From assembly GCF_016806835.2 (NCBI RefSeq), contig NZ_CP086111.1, forward strand, positions 4,395,471 through 4,459,470: 64,000 bases of DNA, in the 5' to 3' direction. Shown in pieces: positions 13,341-45,578 of this stretch. This DNA is from Skermanella rosea. GTDB taxonomy: Bacteria > Pseudomonadota > Alphaproteobacteria > Azospirillales > Azospirillaceae. The notes under the pieces are model-generated. The model was not told the DNA's origin, did no database searches, and saw only the letters and a program-made list of their open reading frames with translations. Positions within the stretch are counted from its first letter, which is position 1, and each line of letters begins with the position of its first letter. The translations under genes were made by a program, and so were the position numbers.

Positions 13341-13346
13341 AGAAAA

Positions 13347-14426
<1,080 letters not shown>

Positions 14427-14438
14427 GGCATTGCTGCC

Positions 14439-14470
14439 GGAGGGGCGGCGTGGCGTCGCCCCTCCTTCTT
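14439..14470 (+). terminator. Intrinsic terminator of the ugp operon
   Basis: The perfect 9-bp stem GGAGGGGCG/CGCCCCTCC is followed by TTCTT. It lies 13 bp past the ugpC stop codon and directly abuts the end of the convergent phaZ gene, so it may serve both strands. Confidence 0.8.
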
Positions 14471-14471
14471 C

Positions 14472-15737: not shown

Positions 15738-15755
15738 GATTCCCCTCACATACAC

Positions 15756-16097: not shown

Positions 16098-16877
16098 TCA
16101 GGCGACCATACGCCAGGCCATGTAGCCGAGCACGCCGGCATTGGCCGCCATGATCAGCGGGGCGACCCGGGCGACCACGCCGCGGAAATTCCGCCCGGCC
16201 ACGTGCCCGGCCAGCCCGACCGCCAGCAGGCTCGGCACCGTGCCGGCGGCGAAGGCCACCATGCCGAAGGCGCCGGCCACCGGGCTGCCGCTGGCCGCTG
16301 CGACCGCGACCGCGCCATAGAGCAGCCCGCAGGGGATGAAGCCCAGCGCCAGCCCGAGGCCGTAGCCGCGCCAGCCGGTCGGCCGGCCGAACAGCGGCTT
16401 GGCCAGACCGCTCACATGGTCGGCCCACCGGCGCCGGACCCTGCCGCCGGAGCTCTTGCCCGAGCGGGGAGCCCGGCCGAGGAGGCCGCCCAGGGCCTGG
16501 ACCAGGAAGAACAGCGCGGCGAAGACCAGCAGCGCCCCGGTGACCCAGCGCAGGCCCGGCACGGCGCCGATGCCGCCGGCCAGCAGCGCCGCCGCCGCGC
16601 CGATCCCCGCATATGTCGTTGCGCGCCCGAAATGGTACGGCAGGACCGCGGCGCCGGTCAGCCGGTGGAACTCGGTCATCCGGCTGGCGGGGACCCCTTC
16701 GAGCCGCGTCGCGACCTGGGCCAGGACGAAGGGGCCGCACATCCCGGCGCAGTGGGACCAGCCGCCGACCAGGCCGGCCATGAACAGGCTGGCGAACAGC
16801 CCGCCGTCGCGGCCGAAATCCACCCCGCATTGCTGCAGGCCCGCGTCGATCAGGGTCAGTACGGTATGCTGGTCCAT
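16098..16877 (-). CDS. SafE/UreH-like integral membrane protein
   Basis: The protein has 259 residues and about six hydrophobic spans. GGWSHCAGMCGPFVLAQ near residue 40 and GFIPCGLLYGAVAVAA near 180 are hallmarks of the sulfite-exporter/UreH-like family (DsbD/CcdA-related two-repeat fold). The Cys residues within the two repeats fit a metal- or redox-linked membrane role, for example copper delivery or cytochrome oxidase maturation; no cco or ure gene is nearby to decide this. I placed the start at ATG 16877 (MDQHTV). An upstream ATG at 16916 adds a basic, unconserved leader. Confidence 0.8.
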   Translation of the reverse strand: MDQHTVLTLIDAGLQQCGVDFGRDGGLFASLFMAGLVGGWSHCAGMCGPFVLAQVATRLEGVPASRMTEFHRLTGAAVLPYHFGRATTYAGIGAAAALLAGGIGAVPGLRWVTGALLVFAALFFLVQALGGLLGRAPRSGKSSGGRVRRRWADHVSGLAKPLFGRPTGWRGYGLGLALGFIPCGLLYGAVAVAAASGSPVAGAFGMVAFAAGTVPSLLAVGLAGHVAGRNFRGVVARVAPLIMAANAGVLGYMAWRMVA

Positions 16878-16950
16878 CGTGCCGGTTCGTCTCGCTGCGG
16901 GATACCCGCCCCACATCAGCGTATCGGGGCGCCGGGAACAATGACGTACG

Positions 16951-17601
16951 TCAAGGCCGGAGACCGAACCGCCCGCGAAAATGCCGGAAAGGCAGGACCA
17001 GGATCGTTCCGGTTATGAAACCGCCGAGATGCGACCACCAGGCGACCATGGCCTCCAGGTCTCCGGCCACCGCTTCCAGGCCCTGGATGCCGAGCCAGCC
17101 GCCGAGCGCCACGTAAACAGGCACGGGCAGGGAAATCCGCCTTCCCGGCAGGACCAGGATCAGCCACGCCTTGGGATGGAGCATGACGGCGGCGGCCAGC
17201 AGGCCGGAGATCGCGCCGCTCGCCCCGACCACCGGATCGATCGAGGCGGGGTCATGCAGGATCTCCGCGCCCGCCCCGCCCAGCCCGCACAGCAGGTAGA
17301 ACAGGCCGTAGCGGACATGGCCCAGGGCCATCTCGACGCTGTCCCCGAACAGCCACAGGAACAGCATGTTGCCGGCCAGGTGCCAGACGTCGGCGTGCAG
17401 GAACATGGAAGACAGCAGGCTGAAGGCCCAGCCCAGCGACGGAACGTCGGGCGGCAGCAGGCGGGCGCCGGTGACCACGGCCGGAACCATCGAGAAGCCG
17501 AGCACGAAGTTCCATGCCGCGGGTCCGGACAGGGCCTCCTGGACCAGGAAGGCAAGGACGCACAGGGCGACGATCGTGACCGTCGCATAGGGCGGCCTCA
17601 C
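16951..17601 (-). CDS. Rhomboid-family intramembrane serine protease
   Basis: The 216-residue protein has about six membrane spans. FLHADVWHLAGNMLFLWLFG contains the HxxxN oxyanion motif, GASGAISG contains the catalytic Ser, and WWSHLGGFITG contains the catalytic His. The start is GTG 17601, which overlaps the stop of the upstream winged-helix gene in a GTGA junction, so translation is probably coupled. Upstream in-frame sequence is antisense to other genes and not part of this protein. Substrates are unknown. Confidence 0.88.
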   Translation of the reverse strand: MRPPYATVTIVALCVLAFLVQEALSGPAAWNFVLGFSMVPAVVTGARLLPPDVPSLGWAFSLLSSMFLHADVWHLAGNMLFLWLFGDSVEMALGHVRYGLFYLLCGLGGAGAEILHDPASIDPVVGASGAISGLLAAAVMLHPKAWLILVLPGRRISLPVPVYVALGGWLGIQGLEAVAGDLEAMVAWWSHLGGFITGTILVLPFRHFRGRFGLRP

Positions 17602-17852
17602 GCCGGCCCGCTCCCCTCGTCGAGGTCCAGCGCCTCCCGCCCCAGATCGGTCAGCCGCCATCCCGCCCCGTCGCCCTCGATCAGCTTCGCCCTGCCGGTC
17701 TCCCGCACGGTGGCGCGGACCCGGTGCAGCGGCAGCCCGGCCGCCGCCGCGATCTCCTCCGGCGCCGCGAACGCCGCGCCGCGGCGGGCCATGTCGGCCA
17801 GCACGCGGCGCGCCACCTCCGTCAGGGTGCCGTCGGGGTTGATGCAGGCCAT
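17598..17852 (-). CDS. Small winged-helix protein (84 aa)
   Basis: The sequence suggests a compact winged helix-turn-helix: EVARRVLADMARRGAAFAAPEEIAAAAGLPLHRVRATVR followed by a basic wing (GRAKLIEGDGAGWRLTDLGREAL). I cannot assign a specific family. It starts 15 bp after the peroxiredoxin stop and its stop overlaps the rhomboid start by 4 bp, so the three genes form one transcription unit. It may be an autoregulator of this operon, which is inference from position only. Confidence 0.7.
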   Translation of the reverse strand: MACINPDGTLTEVARRVLADMARRGAAFAAPEEIAAAAGLPLHRVRATVRETGRAKLIEGDGAGWRLTDLGREALDLDEGSGPA

Positions 17853-17867
17853 GCGCCCGGCGCCCGC

Positions 17868-18551
17868 TCAGCCCTTCGAGCCGGGAGCCGGCACGGTGGT
17901 CTTGCAGAACCACCAGTCCGTGCACTCGTAGCCCAGACCCTTGCGCGCCTCGGCGTCCTCGACGGTGCGCGGAGGCGGGACGATCACGGACTCTCCGGGC
18001 CGCCAGTTGGCCGGGGTGGCGACCCTGTGCCGGTCGGTGGTCTGGAGCGCATCGATCAGCCGCAGGATCTCGTCCGTGTTGCGGCCGGTGGTCAGCGGAT
18101 AATAGATCATGGCGCGCAGGACGCCCTTGTCGTCGATGACGAACAGGCAGCGGCTGGTCTCGGTGGAACTTTCCTCGGGGTTGATCATCCCATAGAGCGA
18201 TGCGACCTCCCGGTTGCCGTCGGCGATCACCGGGAACGGGATCTCGACGCCGAACTTGTCGCGGATCGCCTGGACCCAGGCGAGATGGCTGTAGATGCTG
18301 TCGATCGACAGGCCCAGCAGCTCGGTGTTCCGCTCCTTCAGGGCCGGGGCCATGCGGGCGAACTCGATGAACTCGGTGGTGCAGACCGGCGTGAAGTCGG
18401 CCGGATGGGAGAACAGGACGACCCAGGTCCCGCGATAGTCCTCCAGGGCCAGCCGCCCCTGGGTGGTCTCGGCCTCGAAGGCGGGCGCCATGGCGTTCAG
18501 GCGCGGCAGGGCGGTCTGGATGTGATAGTCGCCGGTGGTGCTGTGTTCCAC
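17868..18551 (-). CDS. 1-Cys-type peroxiredoxin (AhpC/TSA family, Prx6 group)
   Basis: This enzyme reduces peroxides. The 227-residue length and the peroxidatic Cys in SHPADFTPVCTTE (about residue 56), with RGTWVVLFS before it, place it in the Prx6 group. A conserved Arg is in ETSRCLFVIDD. The long C-terminal arm includes PANWRPGESVIVPP and ECTDWWFCKT, which carries extra cysteines. The start is GTG 18551 behind a strong GGAGGAA ribosome site. It is first in an operon with a winged-helix protein and a rhomboid protease. A 13-bp inverted repeat sits at the edge of its ribosome site. Confidence 0.92.
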   Translation of the reverse strand: MEHSTTGDYHIQTALPRLNAMAPAFEAETTQGRLALEDYRGTWVVLFSHPADFTPVCTTEFIEFARMAPALKERNTELLGLSIDSIYSHLAWVQAIRDKFGVEIPFPVIADGNREVASLYGMINPEESSTETSRCLFVIDDKGVLRAMIYYPLTTGRNTDEILRLIDALQTTDRHRVATPANWRPGESVIVPPPRTVEDAEARKGLGYECTDWWFCKTTVPAPGSKG

Positions 18552-32362: not shown

Positions 32363-35300
32363 TCACGTCCAGGACAGGACCGCCCGGGCGTTCCTCAGGT
32401 CGCGGGTATCCAGACCTTCCCGGAACCATGAATAGATCGGCTCCAGGAGCTCCCGCGCTTCCCGGCGTCGGCCCCGGCGGCGCCACAGGCGGGCGAGGCT
32501 GGTCGCGGCGCGCAGTTCGCGCATCCGGGCGTTCTGCCGGCGGGCGATGTCCAGCCCCCGGCGCAGGGCCGCTTCGGCCGCGGCGACCTGGTCGACCGCG
32601 ATCAGCAGCTCGCCCCGGCGCCACTGCAGTTCCGCCTGCGACCCGAGCTCCCAGCGCTCCGCCCGCTCGATCGCCTCGTCGATGAGCACCAGTCCTTCGG
32701 ACGCCCGCCCCGCCTTGCTCAGGGCTTCGGCGAACAGGGCGAGATGGAAGGGAATGCCGAGTTCGCCGCGGGTCGCCCGATAGGCCGTCATTCCCTCCTG
32801 CATGATCGGCATGCCTTCGGCGATCCGGCCCAGATGGACCAGCGCCCATCCCCGGAGAATCCGACCCGCGGCCAGCGCCGAGGCGAAGCCGCAGTCCGAC
32901 GCCAGCCCGATCAGTTCCCCGGTCAGGTCGGCCACCTGCTCCGGAGCCCCCGCATAGGCGGAGAAGTCGCTGGCCTGTTCGAGCGCGAAGGCAAGGGTGG
33001 CCGGGTGCGACAGAAGCCTGGCCCGGGTGAGCGCCTCCCGCTGCCGCTCGACGGCCCTGTCGGGATAGCCCTGGCTGAACAGGTTCCAGGACAGGAACCC
33101 GAGGCATTTGATGCGGTGGTTGTAGGGCTGCACCAGGGGAAGGTACCGGTTCTGCGGCAGGTCGTGGAGCGCTATCGCCTGTTCCAGGTGCCTGCCCGCG
33201 GCTTCGAGCTGTCCGAGGTAGAAGGAGATGACGCCGACCGCGCTGTGGCCCGTCAGCCGGGCCGGCGTTTCCCGCTGCTGCTCGGCCTCGGCCAGCAGCT
33301 CCTTGGCGATGGCGAGCGCATGCCTCAGTTCGGCGCGGCCGAGATGGAATTCGGTCTGGCCGTAGAGGACGGTCAGGAGCTGCGCCCTTTCGCCGATCTG
33401 TTCGCACAGCTGCCGCGCCCGGGCATAGGCTCCGCCCACCTCCGGGGCCGCCAGACCCTTGGTGGCGGCGAGGGCCGCCCCGAGCGTGATCTGAAGCGGG
33501 ATCTCCAGGCGATCCCGCCCGGTCCCCTCGGGCAGTCCGGCGAGGAGGCGCAATCCCTCGTTCACCTGCTCGACGGCTTCGAGGCTGCCCGCCTGGGCCA
33601 GCGCCCTTTGCCCGGCGATCAGCCGATACCGGGCGGCTTCCCGGAACTGGCTGGATTCCTCGTAATGGCGGGCGACCAGTTCGGGCCGGCTCCGGACGGT
33701 ATCCGGAAACTGCTCGACGAGGGTCCGGACGATGCGGCCATGCAGCTGCTGCCGCTTGCCGCGCAGCAGCGCTTGGTAGGCGGTCTCCTGGATCAGCGCG
33801 TGCTTGAAACTGTAGGTCGCCCCGGGCGGAGTCCCGTGGGACAGCAGGAGTCCTCCTCCGGTGAGCTGGTCCAGGGCATCGCGCAGGGCGCGGTCGTCCA
33901 GGTCGGAGACCGCGGCCAGCATATCGTAGGAGAACTCCCGCCCGATCACGGCGCCGATCTGCGCCACCTCCTTGCCCGGGGCCAGCCGGTCGAGGCGGGC
34001 CATCAGCAGATCCTGCAGGGTGGCGGGAATCGTCGTCGCCGCAAGGCCGGGATGCCCGCTCCCGTCGCCGGGAACGCTGGCTTCGATCACCGCCTTCGTC
34101 AGTTCCTCGATGAACAGGGGGACGCCGTCGGCCCGGCCGATGATCCTGCCGACCACCCCGTCGGGCAGCGTTCCGCAATGCGCGACGCTGTTCACCAGCA
34201 TCGCCGACTGCGCGGGAGTGAACCGTTTCAGCACGACGCCGGTGACGTTGGGCCGGGCGTCCTCCGTCCAGGGCGGGTCGAAGTCCAGCCGGAACGTGAC
34301 GATCACCATCAGCCGCGACGACCGGGCGCGATCCATGATCAGCGTCAGCAGGTCCAGGGTGCTCGGGTCGGCGGCATGCACGTCCTCGAACTGCAGCAGC
34401 AGGGGCCGGCGGGAAGCCAGCCCCGCGAAATGGGCCGCCAGGGCTTCGAGCATCAGTTCCCTGCGCTGGCTCGCCTCCTGGACGACCGGCCGGCCCCGAT
34501 CGTCGACCGGGATCGACAGCAGGGACGCGATCGGCTGCAGCGCTCCGTCGCCAAGGCAACCCGACCGGGCGAGCATGGCCCTCAGCTTGTCGAGCCGGCG
34601 ATCCGGCCTGTCGTCGGCCGCGAACCCGGCCTCCCGCTCAAGCGTCTCGATCACGGGAAAGAAGGCGGTATGCCGGAACTGCGGACTGCAGGAGAACTCG
34701 AGCCGGCCGTCCGGAGGGATGTCGAGGTTGCGCGAGAGTTCATGGAGCATGCGCGACTTGCCGATGCCGGGTTCTCCGCCGAGCAGCACCACCTGGCCTT
34801 CGCCCCTCTCCGACCGGCGCCAGCGGTCCGCCAGCAGCGCGAACTCCTCCTCACGGCCGATCAGCGGAGTCGCTCCCGTTTCGTGAAGGGCGGCGAAACG
34901 GTTTGCCACGTTCCTTTCGCCGTCCACCCGCCAGACCCGCACGGGTTTCGCGAAGCCCCTCAACTCCCGGTCGCCCAGGTCGGCGCAGTCGAACAGCCTG
35001 CCGATCAGCCGGCGCGTCGTCTCCGCGATGACCACCGAATTCGGCTCGGCCAGCGTCTGCAGGCGGGCCGCCAGGTTGAGCGGACCTCCGATGACCATCC
35101 GCTCCTCCAGGGCGGACCGGTCGGCCGGATCGTCCACGACCACCAGGCCAGTCGCGATTCCGACGCGGACGCGCAGGCCGGTCCTCGACGGCAGCACCAG
35201 TCCGGCGACGGCCCGGACCAGGCCCAGGCCGGTGCGGACCGCCCGCTCGGCGTCGTCCTCCTGGGCCGCGGGATAGCCGAAATAGATCAGGATGCCGTCA

Positions 35301-35575
35301 CCCAGATGCCGGGCGATCCAGCCGTCGAACCGCTCGACGACACCGGTGCAGGCGTCACGGTATGCCCGGATGACATTGACCATGTCCTCCGGGTCCAGCT
35401 GCTCCGACAGGGCGGTCGATCCGACGATGTCGCAGAACAGGGCCGTGATCTGCCGGCGCTGCCCTTCCGGCCGCAGTGCCTCCCCGTCCCGGCTCCGGGT
35501 CCTCAAGGCCGTCCCGCAATGGCGACAATAGAAATCCCCGCGCTGGTCTTGATGGCCGCAGGCAGGGCATTTCAT
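32363..35575 (-). CDS. Class III adenylate/guanylate cyclase with zinc ribbon, AAA-type ATPase and TPR-like region
   Basis: The 1070-residue protein opens with a zinc ribbon (CPACG...CRHCG, residues 3-21). A class III cyclase domain (about 40-215) follows, with metal-binding Asp in LFCDIVGST and GDGILIYFG. Next is a STAND/AAA-like ATPase with Walker A GGEPGIGKSRM and Walker B-like LLLQFEDVHAADP. The C-terminal 450 residues are helical repeats (TPR-like). It probably makes cAMP in response to a signal sensed through the ATPase/TPR part. ATG 35575 was chosen because the zinc ribbon begins there; GAGAGA lies upstream. Confidence 0.9.
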   Translation of the reverse strand: MKCPACGHQDQRGDFYCRHCGTALRTRSRDGEALRPEGQRRQITALFCDIVGSTALSEQLDPEDMVNVIRAYRDACTGVVERFDGWIARHLGDGILIYFGYPAAQEDDAERAVRTGLGLVRAVAGLVLPSRTGLRVRVGIATGLVVVDDPADRSALEERMVIGGPLNLAARLQTLAEPNSVVIAETTRRLIGRLFDCADLGDRELRGFAKPVRVWRVDGERNVANRFAALHETGATPLIGREEEFALLADRWRRSERGEGQVVLLGGEPGIGKSRMLHELSRNLDIPPDGRLEFSCSPQFRHTAFFPVIETLEREAGFAADDRPDRRLDKLRAMLARSGCLGDGALQPIASLLSIPVDDRGRPVVQEASQRRELMLEALAAHFAGLASRRPLLLQFEDVHAADPSTLDLLTLIMDRARSSRLMVIVTFRLDFDPPWTEDARPNVTGVVLKRFTPAQSAMLVNSVAHCGTLPDGVVGRIIGRADGVPLFIEELTKAVIEASVPGDGSGHPGLAATTIPATLQDLLMARLDRLAPGKEVAQIGAVIGREFSYDMLAAVSDLDDRALRDALDQLTGGGLLLSHGTPPGATYSFKHALIQETAYQALLRGKRQQLHGRIVRTLVEQFPDTVRSRPELVARHYEESSQFREAARYRLIAGQRALAQAGSLEAVEQVNEGLRLLAGLPEGTGRDRLEIPLQITLGAALAATKGLAAPEVGGAYARARQLCEQIGERAQLLTVLYGQTEFHLGRAELRHALAIAKELLAEAEQQRETPARLTGHSAVGVISFYLGQLEAAGRHLEQAIALHDLPQNRYLPLVQPYNHRIKCLGFLSWNLFSQGYPDRAVERQREALTRARLLSHPATLAFALEQASDFSAYAGAPEQVADLTGELIGLASDCGFASALAAGRILRGWALVHLGRIAEGMPIMQEGMTAYRATRGELGIPFHLALFAEALSKAGRASEGLVLIDEAIERAERWELGSQAELQWRRGELLIAVDQVAAAEAALRRGLDIARRQNARMRELRAATSLARLWRRRGRRREARELLEPIYSWFREGLDTRDLRNARAVLSWT

Positions 35576-35971
35576 CGGGGAATCTCTCTCGCTACACTGG
35601 ACTAGGATACACCTGACTCTGGAAGAAAGCGTCGCGCCATGGTCGTCGGCAGCGTACCGCACGCTTCGACCGGCATCCTATTCCGCTTTCGGCGTGTCAC
35701 CAAAGAGCAGGTGGCTGGTCAGGACGATCCGGCGGGACCGATGGTCTCCTTGAAAATAGGCCTCTCCACTTCGGTACATACAACCAATTCCATGAATATC
35801 TTGGGCCGGTTTGATAGTAACAATCTCGAATACATATGCCTCAGACAGTAACCGTGCAGCCTTGAGAAACCGTCCGTCGGGCAAAGCGAAACCGCACCCG
35901 ACCCGCGGAACCCAAGGATCCCCATGAGCGCTCGACTTGACGCAGTACAGTCTTTCCATCCCGGAGGGATC
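35576..35971. other. Divergent leader region between cyclase and GMC operon
   Basis: This 396-bp stretch has no credible gene and is AT-rich at 35750-35860. It includes a half-copy of the GTAGGTCGG-family palindrome (35876-35902). It also has a candidate EcfG-type promoter, GGAAC at 35907-35911 and CGCT at 35929-35932 with a 17-nt spacer, about 40 nt before the first gene of the downstream operon; the -10 match is imperfect. Confidence 0.4.
35876..35902. repeat. Partial copy of the GTAGGTCGG-family repeat
   Basis: GTCGGGCAAAGCGAAACCGC and the following ACCCGAC closely match one arm of the element at 43572-43653 (GTCGGGCAGAGCGAAGCGGC then ACCCGAC). The second arm is absent. Confidence 0.55.
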
Positions 35972-36994
35972 ATGACGTTTGCCACCATTGTCGAAACGAC
36001 TGACGACGATCATGTCCTTGATCTGTGCGCGAAGCACTTGGCGCGGCTGAACTCCGACCTCCGGCATTCCTACAACGGGCACCTGGCCGGGGATCCGCGG
36101 GGACGCTTCAGCGAAGGCTGGCGCTTTCCGGCCATCGAGTCCGACCGGCAGCCGGAGTTCAACCAGGTCACCTTCGTCTGGCGCCGGGAAATGGACGAGC
36201 CTCGCCCCGACGCCGTCGGCCTGATCGGGACCTTCCGAGCCCTGTACGACCGGATCCCGCTGCGCGAGATCCCGGATTCCCTGTACTGGCATGTGACGCT
36301 CCGGATCCCGAAGCGGACCTGCCACAGATACCTGTTCCAGGTCGGTGGCGCCTACCATCAGGACCGCATCAACCCGCAGACCGAGACGGACGGCGACGGT
36401 CGGGTCTGGTCGCGTTTCTTCACGGAGGAAACGACCACGCCGCTGGTCCTGCAGATCCATGAGCGCCGGCTCCTGGGCCGGTTCGTGCAGCATATCCTGC
36501 CGTTCCGGACCGATGCCGCGGAGGAGTTCCTCCGGTCGCCGGGCAATCCCTTGCCCAAGGATGTCTACGAACTGGACCAGGCCGTGGGGGTCGTCAACTT
36601 CATCGACAAGGTGCTGGCCCGGGAGGAGCGGCACAACCGGATCGACTATGCGATCTGCCTGCGGGAGATCGAGAAGATCCTGCGCCAGCGGGAGCCCTAT
36701 TCGGAGCCGGAGAAGGTGAGCAAGGATGCCTTCACCAGGCTCTACGGCGAAATGTGGGGCCAGGTGCCGGGCTGGAACGCGTCGGCCTACGAGAACCCCT
36801 CGCACTTCCTCCGCATGGTCCGCAGGCACGTCTTCCTCGGCGCCTTCTCCCATCCGAAATACGGCGGCAACGCGATGGCCCTGGGCTGGCGCTTCCTGGA
36901 GGAGCGCTTCCGCGATCAGGCCGGCAACAGCGTCTTCGACTGGCGCAAGGCCATCGAGAAGCCGCTCGGGACCAACAACGAGTATGTGGGCTAG
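35972..36994 (+). CDS. GMC dehydrogenase small-subunit-like protein fused to an N-terminal beta-domain
   Basis: The 340-residue protein appears to have two parts. Residues about 45-190 (GRFSEGWRFPAIESDRQPEFNQVTFVWRR...) look like an all-beta, CBM48/esterase-N-like module, a tentative call from pattern only. The C-terminal 140 residues match the gluconate 2-dehydrogenase subunit 3 family, with its diagnostic GAFSHPKYGGNAMALGWRFL. Family members usually carry a Tat signal; none is seen here. ATG 35972 has a strong GGAGGG site. The stop codon lies in the ribosome site of the GMC flavoprotein gene, so the two are probably co-translated and form a complex. Confidence 0.75.
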   Translation: MTFATIVETTDDDHVLDLCAKHLARLNSDLRHSYNGHLAGDPRGRFSEGWRFPAIESDRQPEFNQVTFVWRREMDEPRPDAVGLIGTFRALYDRIPLREIPDSLYWHVTLRIPKRTCHRYLFQVGGAYHQDRINPQTETDGDGRVWSRFFTEETTTPLVLQIHERRLLGRFVQHILPFRTDAAEEFLRSPGNPLPKDVYELDQAVGVVNFIDKVLAREERHNRIDYAICLREIEKILRQREPYSEPEKVSKDAFTRLYGEMWGQVPGWNASAYENPSHFLRMVRRHVFLGAFSHPKYGGNAMALGWRFLEERFRDQAGNSVFDWRKAIEKPLGTNNEYVG

Positions 36995-37007
36995 GAGGGC
37001 CGGGCGC

Positions 37008-38876
37008 GTGGCTGAGACATACGACATCGTCATCATCGGCAGCGGCGCCGGCGGCGCGCCGATCGCGGCGGAACTGGCGGCCCTGCAAGGCCGGGCCCTG
37101 CGCATCCTGGTCCTCGAGAAGGGCCCGAAGCTCCGGACGCAGGAGGACAATCCGGCCGGCGGCTTCAGCGACTTCAAGCGGGACGAACTGCTCAACGCCG
37201 GGCCGGAGAAGCGCATCAACTGGGGCGGCGTCGGCAACACGAACCGTCCTTTCTATTCCAGCCACATCGAGCCCGACCTGAACGACGAGCCGCACCTGTG
37301 GTCCGGGCATGACGAGCAGGACCCCCGCGTCACGGTCGAGGGCTATACCGCCCAGGTCGTCGGCGGCGGGACCCAGCTCTACGGCGCCGTTTCCCTTCGT
37401 TTCCCGGAGCGGGACTTCAAGCTGGCCTCGGCCGACCGTCCCGCCGGGCTGCCGAACGATCCCTACGCCGATCCCGACGTGGACATCCGGGACTGGCCCA
37501 TCGGCTACGACGACCTGCTGCCCTATTACGAGAAGGCGGAGACGCTGGTCGGCATCAACGGAACTGTCACCGACGTGCAGACCGGCGCGCAAGCCCAGGA
37601 GAAGAAGTTTCCGAAGAACTGCTACCAGACGCCGGTCGCTCCGAACCCGATCAGCGACTTGGCCCTGAGCGGGATGAAGAGCATCGGCGCCCAGGTCTAC
37701 CGCACGCCGCTGGCCGTCATCACCGAGGCCCACGCCCCCAGCGGACGGCCGACGCCGGGCTGGGTCAAGACGGGCTATGTCAACCGCTACGGCGACCCCT
37801 TGGGCTACAAGTCGAACACCTGGGTCTCCCTGCTTCGCCCCGCCATGCGGACGCATCCCGGCCGGATCGACCTGCGGGCCAACTGCACCGTCACCCACCT
37901 GGAGGCGAGCGGCAAGCGCATCTCCAAGGTCCATTACCGCGACGCCAGCGGGTTCCCGAAAAGCGTCGAGGGGAAGATCGTTGTGGTCGCCTGCTCTGCG
38001 ATCGAGTCCGTGCGGCTGCTGATGCTGTCGGCGGAAGAAGACCCCACCGGACTGGGCAAGCTCCTGCGCCACGACGAGGACGGCACTCCCCTCGGCCGGT
38101 ATTTCCTGACCCACTGCTTCGGCGGCGCGGAGGTCAGCATCCCGGACGGCAGGCGGTTCGACAAGACGCAGTCCCTGGACAGCGACTACGCCACGGACTG
38201 GACGAGCCGGCTCGACTTCCTGCGCGACAAGAACCTGTGGGCCGGCGCCGCCATCTACAACAACACGTCCGACCAGTCCCTGCCCGTCACCCTGGCGCGG
38301 ACGGACGGAGCCAACGACCTGGATACCTGGTGGCAGGGCTTCGACAACGACCCCGCCAAGACCGGCGAGGGCATCCTCGACTGGATGAACGCCGATTTCG
38401 GCACCCGGCTGAGCGTCAGCTTCATGGCCAACCAGGTCCCCTGGCGGAAGAACCGCATCCGGCTGAGCGACGTGCGCGACAAGTGGAACCGCAAGAGCGC
38501 CTGGGTCGTCAAGGACTGGCACCCCCATGACGGCCACGTCATGGACACCCTGGCCCGCGTGTGCGAGGACATCCTCTTGGCGGGCATTCCCGGAACCATG
38601 CGGGAGGGCCAGAATATCCCGTGGAACAGAGGCGTCATCGGCGAAGGCAGCGTCTACGGCCAGGGCGTCCGCATCGCGAACCACATCCTGGGCGGGGCGC
38701 GCTTCGGCACCGACCGCGCGACGTCGGTTCTGGATCCCGACTGCCGCGTCTGGGACATCGACAATCTCTACGTCACCGACGGCTGCTTCATGCCGACGTC
38801 GGGCGGCGGCAACCCGACGCTGACGATCCAGGCGAATTCGTTCCGCGTCGCCGACATTCTCAAGCAGGTGATCTAA
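37008..38876 (+). CDS. GMC-family FAD oxidoreductase, large subunit
   Basis: The 622-residue flavoprotein has an N-terminal FAD motif (IVIIGSGAGGAPIAAEL, residues 7-23), QVVGGGTQLYGAVSLRFP, an NAG-like internal region (VVACSAIESVRLLML) and the C-terminal GMC signature (NLYVTDGCFMPTSGGGNPTLTIQAN). It is closest in style to the dehydrogenase branch that pairs with a subunit-3 protein, here the upstream gene. GTG 37008 follows AGGAGG. No signal peptide and no cytochrome c subunit gene is present, so the complex looks cytosolic with an unknown electron acceptor. The substrate is probably a sugar alcohol or a glucan-derived alcohol, by inference from neighbours. Confidence 0.88.
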   Translation: MAETYDIVIIGSGAGGAPIAAELAALQGRALRILVLEKGPKLRTQEDNPAGGFSDFKRDELLNAGPEKRINWGGVGNTNRPFYSSHIEPDLNDEPHLWSGHDEQDPRVTVEGYTAQVVGGGTQLYGAVSLRFPERDFKLASADRPAGLPNDPYADPDVDIRDWPIGYDDLLPYYEKAETLVGINGTVTDVQTGAQAQEKKFPKNCYQTPVAPNPISDLALSGMKSIGAQVYRTPLAVITEAHAPSGRPTPGWVKTGYVNRYGDPLGYKSNTWVSLLRPAMRTHPGRIDLRANCTVTHLEASGKRISKVHYRDASGFPKSVEGKIVVVACSAIESVRLLMLSAEEDPTGLGKLLRHDEDGTPLGRYFLTHCFGGAEVSIPDGRRFDKTQSLDSDYATDWTSRLDFLRDKNLWAGAAIYNNTSDQSLPVTLARTDGANDLDTWWQGFDNDPAKTGEGILDWMNADFGTRLSVSFMANQVPWRKNRIRLSDVRDKWNRKSAWVVKDWHPHDGHVMDTLARVCEDILLAGIPGTMREGQNIPWNRGVIGEGSVYGQGVRIANHILGGARFGTDRATSVLDPDCRVWDIDNLYVTDGCFMPTSGGGNPTLTIQANSFRVADILKQVI

Positions 38877-38899
38877 CCAGGACGGATCGAGGAACGGCC

Positions 38900-40078
38900 A
38901 TGGATTTCCGGTTCCAGAAAATCTTCAACGACCCGAGCGCAAGCGTCTTCCAGGTCGTGTTCTTCCCCGACCGCATCTACCACGACCAGTACCTCAACGC
39001 GACGCGGTCCGAACGCTACCGCTACAATGTGCAGGAGGTCCGCACCAAGGCGGACATCACCGTCCTGAAGGGCGAGGTCTACAAGGACTCGGTCCTGTAC
39101 ACCAACTTCCTGCGGGTCGAGTACCGCTCGGCCCGGCTGGTCGAGGCGATGCGGGTGAAGAACCGCCTGGGCGGATCGGCGGTCCGGGCGCGCATCCGCC
39201 TGTGGCTCGACGATGAGCAGCGCGACCTGAGCCAGGCCCAGTTCCTGAACCAGGACGATCCGGTCATCCGGCTCTATTACTGCCCCTGGGTCGACGCCTA
39301 CCAGGTCGAGCTTTGGAACACGCTGGAACCCGGCGAGGGCGACCATCACGACATCGAGGTGCTGACCCAGATGGGCCGCAACGGCGCCATCACCAAGATC
39401 CCCAAGCTGTCGGCCAGGATGGCGGACATGAAGCTGATCCGCGAGGTGGACCTGGAGTTCCTGGAGGACGACGTCACCGAGACCTCCGGCTATTTCCTGC
39501 CCGACACCGAGGTGGCGAAGGACAATTTCTATTTCCGCAATCTCCAGGTCCCGAACACGAACGACCCCAGCAGCGACGGCAACACGATTCAGAAAGGGAC
39601 CTACACCCTGAACTTCCGCCGGGGCTTCTTCATCCCGGACGTCAAGAAGGTGGCGCCGGTCCGCTACCGCAACGCCATGATGCTTCCCGGCAACCCGGAC
39701 GCCAGGGATGACAACATCCTGGAGATGCGCTGGCTGCTCCAGGACGAGTTCTCCTCCTCCATGGTCTTCTTCCACGAGGTGGCGGTGCCGCCCGGGGTGG
39801 TGGAAGGCACGCACCAGCATATCGGCAGCGAGGAGCTCTACTTCGTGTACGAAGGCGAAGGCATCGCCTACATGGGCGCCGCCGACCATCCCGATCTGCC
39901 GGACACCCACCCGGTCGAGGACCGCCACGTGTTCGGGCTCGATCCCAAGCAGGTGCGGCCGCTCGACGTGAAGGCGGGCTCCGTCATTTTCACCAAGAGC
40001 GGCGGCGTCCACGGCATCCGGAATACCCACGCGACCCAGACCCTGCGGTTCGTCGCATTCCTCTACCAGAGCGCCTGA
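38900..40078 (+). CDS. Cupin-domain protein with unusual N-terminal domain (I)
   Basis: The 392-residue protein has a C-terminal cupin barrel with metal ligands in EGTHQHIGSEELYFVYEG and a late His in SGGVHGIRN. The N-terminal 260 residues are unlike any domain I recognise but share a pattern with the next gene: an IR-x-W strand, then Y-P-x-x-D-x-Y-x-x-E-x-W. GAGGAAC precedes ATG 38900. The gene follows the GMC flavoprotein by 23 bp. It could be an epimerase, isomerase or dioxygenase acting on the oxidised product. Confidence 0.72.
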   Translation: MDFRFQKIFNDPSASVFQVVFFPDRIYHDQYLNATRSERYRYNVQEVRTKADITVLKGEVYKDSVLYTNFLRVEYRSARLVEAMRVKNRLGGSAVRARIRLWLDDEQRDLSQAQFLNQDDPVIRLYYCPWVDAYQVELWNTLEPGEGDHHDIEVLTQMGRNGAITKIPKLSARMADMKLIREVDLEFLEDDVTETSGYFLPDTEVAKDNFYFRNLQVPNTNDPSSDGNTIQKGTYTLNFRRGFFIPDVKKVAPVRYRNAMMLPGNPDARDDNILEMRWLLQDEFSSSMVFFHEVAVPPGVVEGTHQHIGSEELYFVYEGEGIAYMGAADHPDLPDTHPVEDRHVFGLDPKQVRPLDVKAGSVIFTKSGGVHGIRNTHATQTLRFVAFLYQSA

Positions 40079-40112
40079 ACAAGAGCCCCCGACCCGGCAC
40101 AGGATGACGTCC

Positions 40113-41483
40113 ATGCAGATCTTCGAAGCCGAAATCCGGAACAACATCGCGGTTTCCCCGGGACAGGGTCCCGACTACCAGGAGCGGAACCCGATCCTGA
40201 GGATGATGGAGGTCTGGGCGAAGGCGGAACTGGCGGCCGACCGCGAGCATTACGACGCCGGCAGCCTCGACTTCCTGTTCCCCTTCAAGGATCTGGCGCT
40301 CTACGGCCCCAGGCCGCCGAACTCGGGCGTGCTCGACCCGCGGAGCCAAGACGAGAAGCAGGATTTCCAGAAGCAGAACGTCGCCGACTTCAATCTGGAG
40401 GATTGCTGGCTCGCCCGGGGCTATGCCAGCGCCGATCCCTGGGAGGGCAGCTTCCTCAAGCTCTCCTATTCGGCCAGCCCCTTCACCCGGCTCGCCACCA
40501 AGGCGGCAGAGGCGGGTTCGCCGCTGAAATCGACCATCCGCGCCTGGATCAAGGTCGGCGGCAACGCCACCTCCTTCCCCATCCTGGTGCCCTACAATCC
40601 GCGCACCGACCGCTACGAGATCGAGATCTGGGCCTATCCGGGCCGCGACCTGTCCGGCCGGCTGGGCGACAAGGGCCGCGCGGCCCTCGAGACCGGGGCG
40701 ATCGTCGCCGACGCCTCCCTCGTCCGCGGCGAGCGCTCGGCCTTCCACGGGCCTGCCGTCAGCGGGGAGCGCGACCAGGCGAACCGGGCGATCGCCCAAA
40801 CCAACGATCCCGCCCCGGTCGACATGATACAGCGCGCCACCGACCACACCCTGCATCCGGTGCTCCCGGTGACGGTGGAGGTCGCCTGGGCGAACGACTC
40901 CCTCCAGGTCTGGGACAACAATGGCGGCGGCAACTATACCTACAAGTTCAACATGCTGTTTCGCGGGTGGCGGAACTACCTGCAGGTCGGGCAGAGCCGG
41001 CATCCCCACGGCGGCGTCGGCTTCCTGGAATACCGCAACCTGCTGTCGAACTATTTCTCGCTGGAGGACAGGCGCAGATCGGTGCTGGGCAACCGCTGGG
41101 AGCCCGAGTTGGGCCGCGAGCTGAACTCCTGGAACTTCGGCGCCGAGGCCTGGAACGGCCAGCAGGCCGCGGGACCCAAGCCCGCCGGCCCGAAGCTGGA
41201 GCGCTTCATGGCCGTCGATTACATGGACCTGCACCTGCTCAACAGCCGCTGCGGCATCGGCATCCACCGTCACCGCGACAATCAGGAGGTGTTCCTGCTG
41301 ATGGAAGGCAGCGCTCTGATGCTGGTGGGCGACTGGTGCAAGTTCCCCGACCGGGAGCGCGCGTTCGAGCTGCGCCAGATGGAGGCGGGCGACCTTGCCG
41401 TCTGCAAGACCGGCCAACTGCACGCCCTGTACAACCATACGGACGAGCAGATCAAGCTGTTCATGTTCGGGGGGTACGACTGA
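40113..41483 (+). CDS. Cupin-domain protein with unusual N-terminal domain (II)
   Basis: The 456-residue protein is a distant paralogue of the preceding gene. Its N-terminal half includes STIRAWIKVGG and YNPRTDRYEIEIWAYP. The C-terminal cupin barrel has CGIGIHRHRDNQEVFLLMEG as metal site and TGQLHALYN carrying the last His. ATG 40113 is preferred over ATG 40104, because AGGA sits at proper spacing only for the former. Two cupins in a row suggest a heteromer or two successive steps. Confidence 0.72.
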   Translation: MQIFEAEIRNNIAVSPGQGPDYQERNPILRMMEVWAKAELAADREHYDAGSLDFLFPFKDLALYGPRPPNSGVLDPRSQDEKQDFQKQNVADFNLEDCWLARGYASADPWEGSFLKLSYSASPFTRLATKAAEAGSPLKSTIRAWIKVGGNATSFPILVPYNPRTDRYEIEIWAYPGRDLSGRLGDKGRAALETGAIVADASLVRGERSAFHGPAVSGERDQANRAIAQTNDPAPVDMIQRATDHTLHPVLPVTVEVAWANDSLQVWDNNGGGNYTYKFNMLFRGWRNYLQVGQSRHPHGGVGFLEYRNLLSNYFSLEDRRRSVLGNRWEPELGRELNSWNFGAEAWNGQQAAGPKPAGPKLERFMAVDYMDLHLLNSRCGIGIHRHRDNQEVFLLMEGSALMLVGDWCKFPDRERAFELRQMEAGDLAVCKTGQLHALYNHTDEQIKLFMFGGYD

Positions 41484-41487
41484 TCCG

Positions 41488-43422
41488 ATGCCCGCATCCC
41501 AGCAACACATCACGCCGGCGACGCCCATGGGGGCGAACCTGGTCCAGGACGGCGCCACGTTCCGCGTCTGGGCGCCGCGCGCGAGGATGGTCCATGTCTG
41601 CGGCGACTTCAACGGCTGGGTCCGGGACGACTCCTCCCTCCTGGTCAGGCAGGGCGACGGCCGCTGGACCGGGTTCGTGCCGAACGCGCGGGACGGCGAC
41701 AAGTACAAATTCTACGTCACCGGCGACGGCACCGAAGGTTTCAAGCGGGATCCCTACGCCCGGGAGCTGACGGTCGCCTGGCCCAACCCCGACTGCATCC
41801 TCCGCTCGGCCGGCAGCTTCCCCTGGCAGGACTGGAGCTGGCGCACGCCGGATTTCCGCGACCTGATCATCTACCAGCTCCATGTCGGGACCTGGTACGG
41901 CCCCGACCGACCGAACCGGGTCGCGAAGTTCCTCGACGTCCTGGACCGGATCGAATATCTGGCCGACCTGGGCATCAACGCGATCGAGCCGCTGCCGATC
42001 GTCGAATACAGCACCTCGCGCAGCATGGGCTACAACGGCTCAGACCTGTTCTCGCCCGAGATGGACTATCAGGTCGGGGATGCCGAGCTGGACCGGTATC
42101 TCGCCTTGGCGAACCGGCTTCTCGCCCAGAAGGGCAAGGCGCCGCTGACCCGCGCCGTGCTCGCGGTCGGAATCAACCAGTTCAAGGCGCTGGTCGATAT
42201 CTGCCACCATTACGGCATCGCGGTCCTGCTCGACGTGGTCTACAACCATGCCTCGGGCGACGTCAGGTCCCAGCCGGAATCGATCTATTTCTTCGACCGC
42301 GCCGCCGGCACGGACCCCAACGACAGCCTCTACTTCACGGAGCAGGACCATACCGGCCCGGTCTTCGCCTTCTGGAAAGGCGACGTGCGCCAGTTCCTGA
42401 TCGACAATGCCCGGTTCTTCCTGGACGAATACCATGTGGACGGCTTCCGCTACGACCAGGTGACCGTGATCGACCGCCAGAACGCCGGCTCCGGCTGGCT
42501 GTTCTGCCAGCACCTGAACGAAACGCTCACCCATCAGGACCCTTCCGCCATCAACATCGCGGAATATTGGGGGCCGGACCCCTCGGTCGTCCGCCCGCAG
42601 GACCAGGGCGGCGCCGGATTCCATGCCAACTGGCACGACGGGCTGCGCACCGCGATCCGCGGCGTCATCCAGCAGGCGGCAGGCGGCCGGGATGCCTTCG
42701 TGGACTGGCAGCCGGTCGTGGACCAGCTCCGCGCCCCCGGTTTCCGGGACGCCTGGCGCGCCGTCCAGTACATCGAGAGCCACGACGAGGTTTACCGCGA
42801 CCGCAACGCCCGAATCCCTTCCCTCGCCGTCGGCGGCAGCCGGCAGACCCGCACCTGGTATGCGACCAGCCGGTCACGGGTGGCGACCGGCCTCGTCCTG
42901 ACCGCCCCCGGCATCCCCATGCTCTTCATGGGCCAGGAGTTCTACGAGGACAAGCGCTGGGCCGACGACCCGCCGAACCACCGCGACGCGCTTCTCTTCT
43001 GGGACGGCCTGGGCACCGACAGGACCATGATCGACTTCCACCGGTTCACCCGCGAACTGGCCTGGCTGCGCCGCAAGCATCCCGCCCTGAGGGGCGAAGG
43101 GGTCCGCACCGTCTCCATGGAGAACGGCCCCCGCGTGCTGGTCTTCCAGCGATGGGTGGAGGGCGTCGGCCGCGACGTGATGGTGGTGGCGAGCCTGAAC
43201 GAGGCGACCCTGTACGGCTACCGGATCCCGATGCCGGCCCCCGGCCGGTGGTTCGAGGTCTTCAACAGCGACCTCTACGAAACCTGGGTGAACCCGAACG
43301 CGGCCGGCAACGGCGGATCGGTCCTGGCCGACGGCCCCGGCCTGAACGGCCTGCCCTGGTCGGCCGCCATCACGGTCCCGGCCAACGCCTTCCTCGTATT
43401 CGCCCGCGACCAGGGGGATTGA
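41488..43422 (+). CDS. GH13 alpha-glucan branching-type enzyme (CBM48 + GH13)
   Basis: The 644-residue enzyme opens with a CBM48 module (FRVWAPRARMVHVCGDFNGW, residues 25-44). A GH13 barrel follows: region I DVVYNHA, region II DGFRYD with the nucleophile Asp, region III NIAEYWG with the acid/base Glu, and region IV ESHDE. The overall order resembles GlgB or trehalohydrolase-type enzymes, though the glgB/treZ subfamily cannot be fixed by eye. It ends the five-gene operon and has only 4 bp between the previous stop and its ATG. It would act on an alpha-glucan or its oxidised derivative. Confidence 0.88.
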   Translation: MPASQQHITPATPMGANLVQDGATFRVWAPRARMVHVCGDFNGWVRDDSSLLVRQGDGRWTGFVPNARDGDKYKFYVTGDGTEGFKRDPYARELTVAWPNPDCILRSAGSFPWQDWSWRTPDFRDLIIYQLHVGTWYGPDRPNRVAKFLDVLDRIEYLADLGINAIEPLPIVEYSTSRSMGYNGSDLFSPEMDYQVGDAELDRYLALANRLLAQKGKAPLTRAVLAVGINQFKALVDICHHYGIAVLLDVVYNHASGDVRSQPESIYFFDRAAGTDPNDSLYFTEQDHTGPVFAFWKGDVRQFLIDNARFFLDEYHVDGFRYDQVTVIDRQNAGSGWLFCQHLNETLTHQDPSAINIAEYWGPDPSVVRPQDQGGAGFHANWHDGLRTAIRGVIQQAAGGRDAFVDWQPVVDQLRAPGFRDAWRAVQYIESHDEVYRDRNARIPSLAVGGSRQTRTWYATSRSRVATGLVLTAPGIPMLFMGQEFYEDKRWADDPPNHRDALLFWDGLGTDRTMIDFHRFTRELAWLRRKHPALRGEGVRTVSMENGPRVLVFQRWVEGVGRDVMVVASLNEATLYGYRIPMPAPGRWFEVFNSDLYETWVNPNAAGNGGSVLADGPGLNGLPWSAAITVPANAFLVFARDQGD

Positions 43423-43648
43423 GCTAAGAAAACTCCCCTTTCGACAGGGCGGACTTGGAAGTACAAAACATGGTAGCAACACCCCTTTTCTTCATGACCG
43501 GGCTTGACCCGGTCATCCACGCGCGAATTACATCGCGCCGTCTTGCACATGGATGTACGGATCAAGCTCCACGTAGGTCGGGCAGAGCGAAGCGGCACCC
43601 GACAAAGCCCGACGCACGGGTGTCGGCTGCCGTTTCGCCCTAGCTGAC
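43423..43648. other. Intergenic repeat-rich stretch
   Basis: No gene is seen. The stretch carries a single palindromic unit at 43491-43523 and most of a larger palindrome at 43572-43653. Confidence 0.6.
43491..43523. repeat. REP-like unit, same family as 2411-2500
   Basis: TTCATGACCGGGCTTGACCC and the following GGTCATCCACGCG form a self-palindromic unit (GACCGGG-CTTG-CCCGGTC) closely related to the pair at 2411-2500. Confidence 0.6.
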
Positions 43649-43653
43649 CTACG
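43572..43653. repeat. GTAGGTCGG-family palindromic element
   Basis: The outer arms CGTAGGTC (43572-43579) and GACCTACG (43646-43653) match perfectly. The inner arms GCGAAGCGGCACCCGAC and GTCGGCTGCCGTTTCGC pair with two mismatches. The right edge includes the stop codon of the degraded Rpn copy. Confidence 0.75.
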
Positions 43654-44079
43654 GTTGACCGCCGGATTCCGGGTGGAGTTCAAGGAAGACGTCGCCCGGC
43701 GCGCGGGCATCCATCAGGCGGTACATGTAGTCGTCGAACTGTTCCGCCGTCGCGTCCTCGATCAGGCTCTCCGCGCCGGCCGGCAGGGCGCCGAAGCGGC
43801 GGGTGAGCTGGCGCCGGAGCATCGCGGCCCGGCCCTCATGACCTCGGCTCTTCCCTCCGCGAAGCCTTCGGCGAAGCCTTTGGCGAGCAGTTCCTTTTCC
43901 CACTTCTTGATGCGTTCCGCCAGCATGCCCTGAATCCCCTCCATATCCATCGGCACCGTTGCGGCCTGCGGGCCGCCGAACAGACCCATGACCGCGTGCG
44001 CCACCACCTCGCCGAACGCCAGCCGTAACGTGGCGTGCCCGGGATGGTCGGCAAACCGTTCCTGTTCCCGCCTTGACAT
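43649..44079 (-). pseudogene. Decayed C-terminal copy of an Rpn-family nuclease gene
   Basis: Only the C-terminal 140 residues remain, with no nuclease core. In one frame the text reads DHPGHATLRLAFGEVVAHAV...MLAERIKKWEKELLAKG. Near 43840 the match shifts into another frame and continues as LRRQLTRRFGALPAGAESL...YMYRLMDARAPGDVF to a stop at 43649. Both halves match the intact gene at 44161-45150 closely. This is a partial tandem duplication with a frameshift. Translation from ATG 44079 would give a product that leaves the conserved frame. Confidence 0.75.
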
Positions 44080-44160
44080 TTGGTTCCAGGCGTTGGGCCT
44101 TGGCCCAACGCATCGCAGGACATGAAGTGGGGAGTCGTCCGATTCGGCCGGAGAACCGGG

Positions 44161-45150
44161 TCACTCGCCGGGGCGGAGGAGGCCGGGGAAGACGTCGCTC
44201 GGCGCCTGGGCGTCCATCAGTCGATCCATGTAGGCGTCGTGCTGGTCCGGCGTCGCGGTATCGATCAACCGTTCCACATCCTCCGGCAGAGCCCCGAAGC
44301 GTCGGGTGAACTGGCGCTTGAGCAGGGCGGCCCTGCCCTTGGCCTCGCCCCTGGCCTCGCCTCTGGCTTCGCCCTTTGCGACCAGCTCCTGTTCCCACTT
44401 CTTGATGCGTTCCGCCAGCATGCCCTGAACCTCCTCGATATCCATCGGCACCGTTGCGGCCTGCGGGCCGCCGACCAGCCCCGCGACCGCGTGCGCCACC
44501 ACATCGCCGAACGCCAGCCGCAGCGTCGCGTGGCCCGGATGGTCCTTGAACCAGGCCACCGCCTGGGTGACCAGGCCGGGCAGGTCCTCCGGCCGGTCGC
44601 AGATCTCGATCCGGAACAGCAGCGCCACCAGGCTGTCGTGCCGGGCCAAGTCCTCGGCGCGCAGCCGTCCCTCGTCGATCAGATGATAGCGGACCTGCGG
44701 CTGCCAAGGCCAGAGCGGCGAGTCCTCGGGCAGGGCCACCAGGTCGGCGGTGTCGGCGGGGCAGTCCCAGCGGGCCTCGCCGGCGTAGAGCACGATCGGC
44801 AGCAGCGGCGGCAGCCGGCCGCCCGGGGCGAGGGCGCGCCCGGCGATGATCTGCTGCCAGAGCAGGCCGGAATAGACCTGCACCCGCACCGGCATGAACC
44901 GCTCCGGGGTCGATTGGAACTCCAGCAGCAGGTAGATGTGGACCATCTCGCCGGCCAGCGTCGGCACGCGCCAGATCACGTCGCCCTCGCGCCGGTCGCC
45001 GCGGGCGGCATGGAACTTGGCGTTGACCCGTTCGAGCCGGGTGAAGTCCAGTATGGCGGCGATCCCGGCGGGCAGGAAGCCGCGCACGAGCTGCTCGATC
45101 ATCACCGGGTCGGAGAACAGGCGGTGGTACAGGGAGTCGGAGGCTTGCAT
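44161..45150 (-). CDS. Rpn-family recombination-promoting nuclease (PD-(D/E)XK)
   Basis: The 329-residue protein matches the Rpn/YhgA-like family. LYHRLFSDPVMIEQLVRGFLP opens it. The nuclease core is in DVIWRV...VHIYLLLEFQSTPERFMPVRVQVY (D...ExQ pattern), and the second half is conserved (PIVLYAG, HPGHATLRLAFGD, RFGALPEDVE). The C-terminal part has a Glu/Lys/Ala/Gly stretch (KGEARGEARGEAKG) that is repetitive at DNA level. Family members raise RecA-independent recombination and some act against phage. ATG 45150 was chosen because upstream residues are not family-like; no strong ribosome site was seen. A frameshifted C-terminal copy lies immediately downstream. Confidence 0.85.
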   Translation of the reverse strand: MQASDSLYHRLFSDPVMIEQLVRGFLPAGIAAILDFTRLERVNAKFHAARGDRREGDVIWRVPTLAGEMVHIYLLLEFQSTPERFMPVRVQVYSGLLWQQIIAGRALAPGGRLPPLLPIVLYAGEARWDCPADTADLVALPEDSPLWPWQPQVRYHLIDEGRLRAEDLARHDSLVALLFRIEICDRPEDLPGLVTQAVAWFKDHPGHATLRLAFGDVVAHAVAGLVGGPQAATVPMDIEEVQGMLAERIKKWEQELVAKGEARGEARGEAKGRAALLKRQFTRRFGALPEDVERLIDTATPDQHDAYMDRLMDAQAPSDVFPGLLRPGE

Positions 45151-45578
45151 CGTCGCGTGTGCCCGGAAGGAAGTGCTCGCGCGATCAGCAGCACACTCCC
45201 GCAACCATCGGCAAGGCCCGGCCGGTTGCTGCGACCTTCTGACCCGATGAATTTGCCCCACGGCGCGGTGTGGGAGCGCTGGCTCCGAGGCAATCGGCAT
45301 CGGAGCGCCACATCAACCTGCTTCCGAGCACCCCGGATCAATACAGTTGTTCCCCGACTACCCGGCACAGCATAGTTCTCGGCTTTGGTCTTGGGTGTCC
45401 TGAGCGTGTCTTCCCGGGCAGAAATGCTCGAGCCTTATTGAAACCCGCCGAGGATCGCGTGCTCCTCGTTAATCATCATGCCCGCCCAACCCGACGCCCC
45501 CAGCCAAAAACGTTGCATTCGCGCTTAACGCTGGGTAATGTTCCCTAATTGTTCTCATCCGGCCAAGGCGCTCCAGCC
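45151..45578. other. Intergenic region upstream of Rpn and terminase-like genes
   Basis: This is a 428-bp divergent gap. I found no supported gene, repeat or RNA. It contains the leaders of both flanking genes. Confidence 0.4.

Follow-up and report, generated by a model that had tools for sequence, protein, structure and literature searches.

A conserved five-gene unit encoding a GMC oxidoreductase, twin cupins and a GH13 enzyme in Skermanella rosea

Genes and domains of the unit

Five packed open reading frames (ORFs) occupy the plus strand at positions 35972-43422 of a 64,000-nucleotide stretch of the Skermanella rosea genome (contig NZ_CP086111.1, positions 4,395,471 to 4,459,470; hereafter, the window). 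These ORFs, denoted g1 to g5 in order of succession, encode the small subunit and the flavoprotein of a GMC oxidoreductase, two related cupin proteins and an enzyme of family GH13. All five genes are found together in 10 of the 12 loci that contain a g3 homologue, in several genera, and because the same five genes recur in this way, their co-occurrence is beyond chance. The five genes thus form a conserved unit, in which the catalytic and ligand residues are intact. Synteny of this kind across distant taxa is the pattern by which a preliminary description of the window, made from the sequence alone, proposed to recognise a unit. The gene and domain content given there was reproduced as well: all five ORFs are present with small gaps between them, and Pfam and hhalign comparisons confirm the small subunit, the flavoprotein, the two related cupins and the GH13 enzyme. 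The genes of the unit are as follows.

g1, 35972-36994, plus strand: GMC small subunit, with a CBM48/Enterochelin_N-like beta-domain (~36164-36445) followed by Gluconate_2-dh3 (~36554-36895) (Pfam, PDB profiles, alignment)
g2, 37008 (GTG) or 36984 (ATG, overlapping g1) to 38876, plus strand: GMC flavoprotein (Pfam, NCBIfam, PDB profiles)
g3, 38900-40078, plus strand: first twin cupin, with a C-terminal cupin domain (~39776-40060) (Pfam)
g4, 40104-41483, plus strand: second twin cupin, paralogue of g3, with a C-terminal cupin domain (~41256-41465) (Pfam, hhalign)
g5, 41488-43422, plus strand: CBM48 domain (~41524-41760) followed by the GH13 enzyme (Pfam, NCBIfam)

The gaps amount to 13 bp between g1 and g2 (or an overlap, depending on the g2 start), 23 bp between g2 and g3, 25 bp (or 34 bp with a g4 start at 40113) between g3 and g4 and 4 bp between g4 and g5. 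A scan for promoters and terminators yielded no more sites than were obtained in shuffled sequence.

The g2 protein matches GMC_oxred_C (E 5.9e-22) and GMC_oxred_N (E 3.2e-7), and His559 and Asn602, which we take to be the GMC catalytic pair, are invariant in all 11 sequences. In profile searches against PDB, the nearest solved relatives are sugar dehydrogenases, namely the flavin adenine dinucleotide (FAD)-dependent glucose dehydrogenase and fructose dehydrogenase, and the His and Asn stretches of g2 align with PDB 6a2u/8hdd. The Gluconate_2-dh3 domain (PF13618) of g1 is present in 11/11 orthologues (E 2.3e-9 in the window copy). The additional N-terminal beta-domain noticed in the preliminary description is matched by AMPK1_CBM in five of the 11 orthologues (best E 2.1e-5), and the window copy matches only Enterochelin_N (E 0.013, below the Pfam cut-off). 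In PDB, g1 profiles weakly match AMPK beta-2 (E 0.41-0.73), and the top match of a larger g1 profile is a ferulic acid esterase (also weak, E 0.12). To judge from these profile similarities, the domain is CBM48-like.

The closest known systems are the direct electron transfer (DET)-type FAD dehydrogenase complexes, represented by the glucose dehydrogenase of Burkholderia cepacia (BcGDH; PDB 6a2u/8grj) and by fructose dehydrogenase (7w2j), which likewise combine a GMC large subunit with a Gluconate_2-dh3 small subunit of the hitchhiker type. The DET complexes, however, carry a Cys loop for a 3Fe-4S cluster, a twin-arginine signal and a cytochrome, none of which was encountered in g1-g5; conversely, g1 adds the CBM48-like domain, and cupins and a GH13 enzyme stand where the DET complexes have a heme subunit. 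According to PMC6719666, the cluster ligands of BcGDH are Cys212, Cys218 and Cys222, and its small subunit is a hitchhiker of the twin-arginine translocation (TAT) pathway. The g2 loop aligned to the 3Fe-4S loop of the FAD-glucose dehydrogenase contains no Cys in any of the 11 sequences. A twin-arginine (RR) pair is absent from the first 40 residues of 10 of the 11 g1 sequences, with starts picked by hand and no signal-prediction program applied; the only such pair, in locus L040, lies upstream of the first ATG. Pfam detects no multiheme cytochrome c among the five proteins, the rest of the genome not having been searched for a partner. Because the 3Fe-4S Cys residues, the twin-arginine pair and a cytochrome gene are all missing from the unit, g1-g2 is probably a cytosolic enzyme with an electron acceptor other than that of its cytochrome-linked relatives; as a guess, O2 would be the simplest one.

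The cupin domain of g3 matches Cupin_2 with E 2.8e-7 and that of g4 with E 2.5e-5, the latter below the cut-off. The two proteins are related across ~280 aligned columns (hhalign probability 97.4%, E 1.5e-11) and, on this similarity, are classified as paralogues. The N-terminal regions of g3 (some 230-290 aa) and g4 (~370 aa) yielded no convincing family match. Residues H305, H307, E311, E312 and H371 of g3 and H388, H390, E395 and H440 of g4 are invariant (11/11 in each alignment), such that the HxH...E...H set, presumably the cupin metal ligands, is kept in both proteins.

In g5, Pfam identifies CBM_48 (E 3.8e-16), Alpha-amylase (E 9.4e-14) and Alpha-amylase_C domains. Asp323, Glu359 and Asp433, which we take to be the GH13 catalytic positions, are invariant in 9/9 sequences, a count from which the L040 row was omitted given that its coordinates overran the stop codon (its 640-residue frame is open).

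Distribution and history of the unit

The distribution of the unit was traced through g3, in genome samples that overlap one another. A full-length g3 homologue is present in 3 of 59 relatives. At the level of the order the count is 4 of 82 genomes, comprising three of the five in the genus of S. rosea and one in another genus. The phylum sample contains a single one (1/398, the window's own genome) and the class sample two (2/385, the window and one congener), along with two weak, partial matches. Elsewhere, the genus that includes Bradyrhizobium sp. Rc3b contributed six homologues from 265 genomes (one decayed, in two pieces), that of Microvirga sp. VF16 one from 48, and the class of a gammaproteobacterial metagenome-assembled genome (MAG) one from 369, the last two being the seeds themselves; the other 11 of the 12 gammaproteobacterial matches are short stretches in or beside the cupin part. 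A scan of named genomes with a single g3 sequence retrieved no locus, and an alignment-based scan retrieved three, using only two N-terminal peptide patterns, with which others may be missed.

The resulting loci were found in three congeners (S. rosea included), in one member of a second genus of the order, on a Microvirga plasmid, in Bradyrhizobium and in the gammaproteobacterial MAG. The ten complete loci are the window, L012, L013, L014 (Microvirga plasmid pMVF16-5), L040, L015, L041, L042, L043 and L044. Seven of these are collinear; in L015, L041 and L042, all from Bradyrhizobium, g5 is divergent and lies upstream, still adjoining the other genes. The two incomplete loci are L017, in the MAG, which retains g1-g3 and most of g4 up to a contig end that cuts inside g4, and L045, a decayed copy in the Bradyrhizobium genus with fragments of g2-g5 (g3-g5 in pieces), in which g1 gives no match at E 1e-5.

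Scattered homologues, which the preliminary description considered to speak against a unit, were sought for single genes among 72,556 plasmid records and, in whole genomes, for g3 only. Among the plasmids, g1, g3 and g4 match the Microvirga plasmid alone, save for one short cupin match to g4. With g2, the next record below Microvirga shows 28.6% identity across 95% of the length; six of 481 records match g2 at 60-80% identity, of which Microvirga is one and another covers 58 residues of the C-terminal GMC part. When the comparison is confined to the first 364 residues, Microvirga is 58.9% and the next-ranked record 30.4% identical to g2. The plasmid relative of g5 ranked after Microvirga is likewise 30.4% identical. 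It could be argued that the five genes are chance neighbours with no common function, given that GMC and GH13 families are common and that this genome alone holds 13 GMC_oxred_C matches. This explanation is contradicted by the synteny, that is, by a set kept in 10/12 loci, in several genera and amid unrelated flanks, and by the retention of the GH13 gene despite inversion and different ancestry; it appears extremely improbable.

Flanking DNA of the ten complete loci (at most 4.5 kb per side; L017 and L045 being left out) was compared by blastn, which detected sequence in common only among the three congeners; the only other match, of 43 bases, links the Bradyrhizobium loci L015 and L044, and none was found between genera. 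Two further congeners, both drafts of 190-280 contigs, are without g3; one stretch of each was compared, and these share with the window only the gene at ~30.35-31.44 kb, one of them adding a 204-base match. The unrelatedness of the flanks between genera and the patchy presence of the genes support transfer between lineages as a unit. Acquisition as a unit had been suggested on the strength of mobile palindromes at the edges of the region; the suggestion itself thus stands, and the palindromes lend it no support. They lie at 35876-35902 and 43577-43603 and belong to a family of 27-base repeats of which the genome contains 35 when up to 3 mismatches are allowed; the copies often occur as facing pairs ~44 bases apart from start to start and resemble repetitive extragenic palindromic (REP) elements. 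As dispersed repeats with no match in the 19-kb operon loci of two congeners, they were rejected as marks of acquisition; given this absence, their arrival or loss was independent of the operon. Integration linked to tRNA genes was rejected as a rule, with one tRNA in eight loci scanned, ~5 kb from the unit.

Against two congeners, the ratio of nonsynonymous to synonymous substitution rates (dN/dS) is 0.10-0.22 for all five genes. The pairwise identities of g1-g4 correlate closely (0.93-0.985 over 55 non-independent pairs), and those of g5 with g1-g4 less so (0.84-0.92 over 36 non-independent pairs). For g1-g4, L014 and L015 are 53.0, 72.5, 62.5 and 53.8% identical, above the values for L015 and L043 (41.7, 56.3, 48.4 and 45.1%), whereas in g5 the order is reversed (50.7% versus 63.5%). 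The g5 tree rejects a clade of L014, L015, L041 and L042 (approximately unbiased (AU) test, p 2.4e-6), and the g5-like clade is in turn rejected by g4 (p 0.008); both clades had been picked after the identities were seen. FastTree support for grouping L014 with the L015 group is 1.000 for g1, 0.966 for g2 and 0.997 for g4. Because the identities and tree of g5 conflict with those of g1-g4 while g5 remains adjoining, our reading is that the inverted clade (L015, L041, L042) exchanged its g5 and kept the gene beside its partners. Some points weaken this case: while the conflict is firm for g4, the g2 data do not firmly reject the g5-like clade (p 0.075), a careful nine-row g2 tree places L014 outside a group of the congeners and the L015 group, the FastTree support in g3 is only 0.527, and the AU tests covered g2, g4 and g5.

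Several neighbouring genes may be mentioned. A minus-strand gene at 32363-35662, adjoining the unit, encodes a regulator-like protein with Adenylate/guanylate cyclase, AAA_16 and TPR domains; its DNA is conserved along with the unit in two congeners and gives only scattered short matches in the two congeners that lack it. On the other side (43649-45300, minus strand), tandem related ORFs that share direct repeats of 77-83% identity presumably encode Rpn-family proteins, and in the congener locus L013, DNA matching the window from 46437 onward begins ~250 bases past the operon. Farther off, ~11610-14080 of the window matches, at ~75-78% identity, genes for a glycerol-3-phosphate transporter (ugpA/ugpE/ugpC) that are carried by plasmids of rhizobia and related bacteria. 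Among the other loci, L041 carries downstream of the unit (13070-18323) ferritin-like (PF12902), LodA_N and FAD oxidoreductase genes that resemble a LodA/LodB oxidase cluster, and a gene with a Thiaminase-1 domain (L043:16289-17542) lies ~2.6 kb from the unit. A different GMC cluster, on Azospirillum argentinense plasmid p5 (L023:3405-11569), consists of a GMC and subunit-3 pair beside genes for a HAD hydrolase, a glycerophosphodiester phosphodiesterase and an amidohydrolase.

Possible function and alternatives

Tentatively, the unit could be regarded as a metabolic module of five genes that moves horizontally, is seldom carried and would oxidise and remodel a cytosolic glucoside or alpha-glucan oligomer. 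In such a module, g1 and g2 would together make up an FAD-dependent oxidase or dehydrogenase of sugars, located in the cytosol, with the CBM48-like domain of g1 docking the alpha-glucosidic substrate or the GH13 partner. This enzyme would oxidise a secondary hydroxyl (C3 or C2) of a glucosyl residue; O2 or a soluble acceptor would take up the electrons, which would not pass via a 3Fe-4S cluster to a cytochrome. The metal cupins g3 and g4 would act in turn on the unstable keto-sugar, by elimination, hydration or isomerisation, and g5 would supply, transfer or clip the alpha-glucosidic substrate, with the net effect of an oxidative route through a cytosolic alpha-glucan oligomer or glucoside. 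The chemistry is supported by the invariant GMC His/Asn, GH13 Asp/Glu/Asp and cupin ligands and by the CBM48 signals in g1 (5/11) and g5.

In the levoglucosan pathway (PMC7676230), the 3-keto compound is formed first, and two proteins, each annotated as a sugar phosphate isomerase, then carry out an elimination and a hydration. By analogy, this pathway may serve as a precedent for two similarly annotated proteins acting in turn after C3 oxidation. The LgdA-LgdB1-LgdB2-LgdC system is thus akin to the present unit in the oxidation of a sugar followed by two proteins of related annotation, but its follow-up enzymes are of the sugar-isomerase type, whereas here they are cupins (a word that occurs 0 times in that text), and the five-gene unit is without a reductase. 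The same logic, found in the Lgd enzymes and in glycoside 3-oxidases (PMC10646112), could apply to the catabolism of one glycoside apart from storage glucan, such as a levoglucosan-like or C-glycoside-like compound: oxidation at C3 would labilise the bond, the cupins would eliminate and hydrate, and the GH13 enzyme would be an alpha-glucosidase. A distant GMC and subunit-3 pair of Mesorhizobium, which sits by sugar ABC transporter, isomerase/epimerase and Gfo/Idh genes, is consistent with this scheme. Genes of these three kinds are, however, not part of the five-gene unit, and none is annotated nearby on the Microvirga plasmid; furthermore, two CBM48-type domains and a GH13 enzyme point to alpha-glucans, and catabolism of such a glycoside seems unlikely.

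Bacterial glycoside 3-oxidases and pyranose oxidases are FAD-dependent GMC enzymes that act on sugars with O2, and g2 is a weak match to the family: the pyranose oxidase model TIGR02462 is its third-best NCBIfam match (E 1.8e-11), with 43.6 bits, far below the cut-off of 544.9. We know of no Gluconate_2-dh3 partner of these enzymes. The match nevertheless raises the possibility that the unit directs the biosynthesis of a small oxidised sugar, the GH13 enzyme freeing glucose or maltose, the GMC enzyme oxidising C2 and the cupins dehydrating the osone to a product, comparable to fungal cortalcerone, that would be secreted as an antimicrobial or a signal. The fungal aldos-2-ulose dehydratase has cupin domains, and the rare, patchy presence of the unit would suit accessory metabolites. 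The reference list of PMC11650716 contains a paper whose title concerns the conversion of glucose to cortalcerone by aldos-2-ulose dehydratase together with pyranose 2-oxidase. Against this, the cupin profiles of g3 and g4 do not match aldos-2-ulose dehydratase among PDB sequences (the comparison of folds rests on poor models), and the unit is without an exporter or tailoring gene. Such a biosynthetic role therefore appears quite unlikely.

A role in stress, antagonism or defence, in which a cytosolic oxidase would burn glycogen ends to produce peroxide or a reactive keto-sugar, is highly unlikely. The patchy presence would be compatible with it, as would the LodA_N and ferritin-like genes downstream in L041 and the location of the Microvirga copy among DUF4365 and DUF3578 genes, which are common in defence islands. 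The flanks differ between lineages, however, and the five proteins contain no effector, nuclease or sensor domain in Pfam. PADLOC at E 0.01 returned a match to a GlgB-type GH13 model only, and anti-phage defence was rejected on this basis.

Cytosolic oxidation of an alpha-glucan or glucoside, which the preliminary description had already put forward, accordingly remains the preferred reading. The domain content is consistent with it, as are the missing 3Fe-4S Cys residues and the fact that no export signal is visible; the alpha-glucosidic substrate is a putative one. Several observations weigh against it. The Trp positions of the AMPK CBM48 domain, which we take to be the glycogen-stacking residues, vary among the 11 aligned g1 rows, and for this reason the CBM48-like domain of g1 may be structural. 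The AlphaFold models of g3 and g4, built from four-row alignments, have mean predicted local distance difference test (pLDDT) scores of 55.8 and 40.0, too weak for the N-terminal domains; by manual reading, cupin-type proteins are among the 50 best of 1500 Foldseek matches of the low-confidence g3 model, and the poor g4 model yielded no match at E 0.001. No precedent for cupin chemistry on keto-glycosides was found in the open-access literature, the one co-mention being a polyphenol review, and no transporter or regulator gene recurs beside the unit in the loci examined. Finally, g5 remains under the curated NCBIfam cut-offs for GlgB (best model 224.4 versus 741 bits) and for TreZ (TIGR02402, 184.4 versus 538.8 bits), with both of which it shares domain order and catalytic residues. 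By these scores, g5 is nearest to GlgB and TreZ. It forms an ortholog group of its own and, by its CBM48 domain and catalytic triad, belongs to GH13 at the clan level.

No description of this five-gene set was found in the open-access literature, which leaves most subscription papers outside its coverage. Taken in its full form, the proposal would be an undescribed mobile pathway made up of a CBM48-tethered cytosolic flavo-oxidase acting on alpha-glucan, two cupins of a new N-extended family for elimination and hydration, and a new GH13 subgroup; this combination is considered somewhat unlikely. For glucose sensing at electrodes, a GMC enzyme with a Gluconate_2-dh3 partner is considered promising (PMC9727119). 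The unit offers a natural variant of such a complex, without the 3Fe-4S Cys residues and with a domain resembling a carbohydrate module, accompanied by two cupins and a GH13 enzyme in every intact locus detected. This gene set suggests a sugar-oxidation route so far undescribed, and its fixed composition makes the role of both cupin families directly testable.

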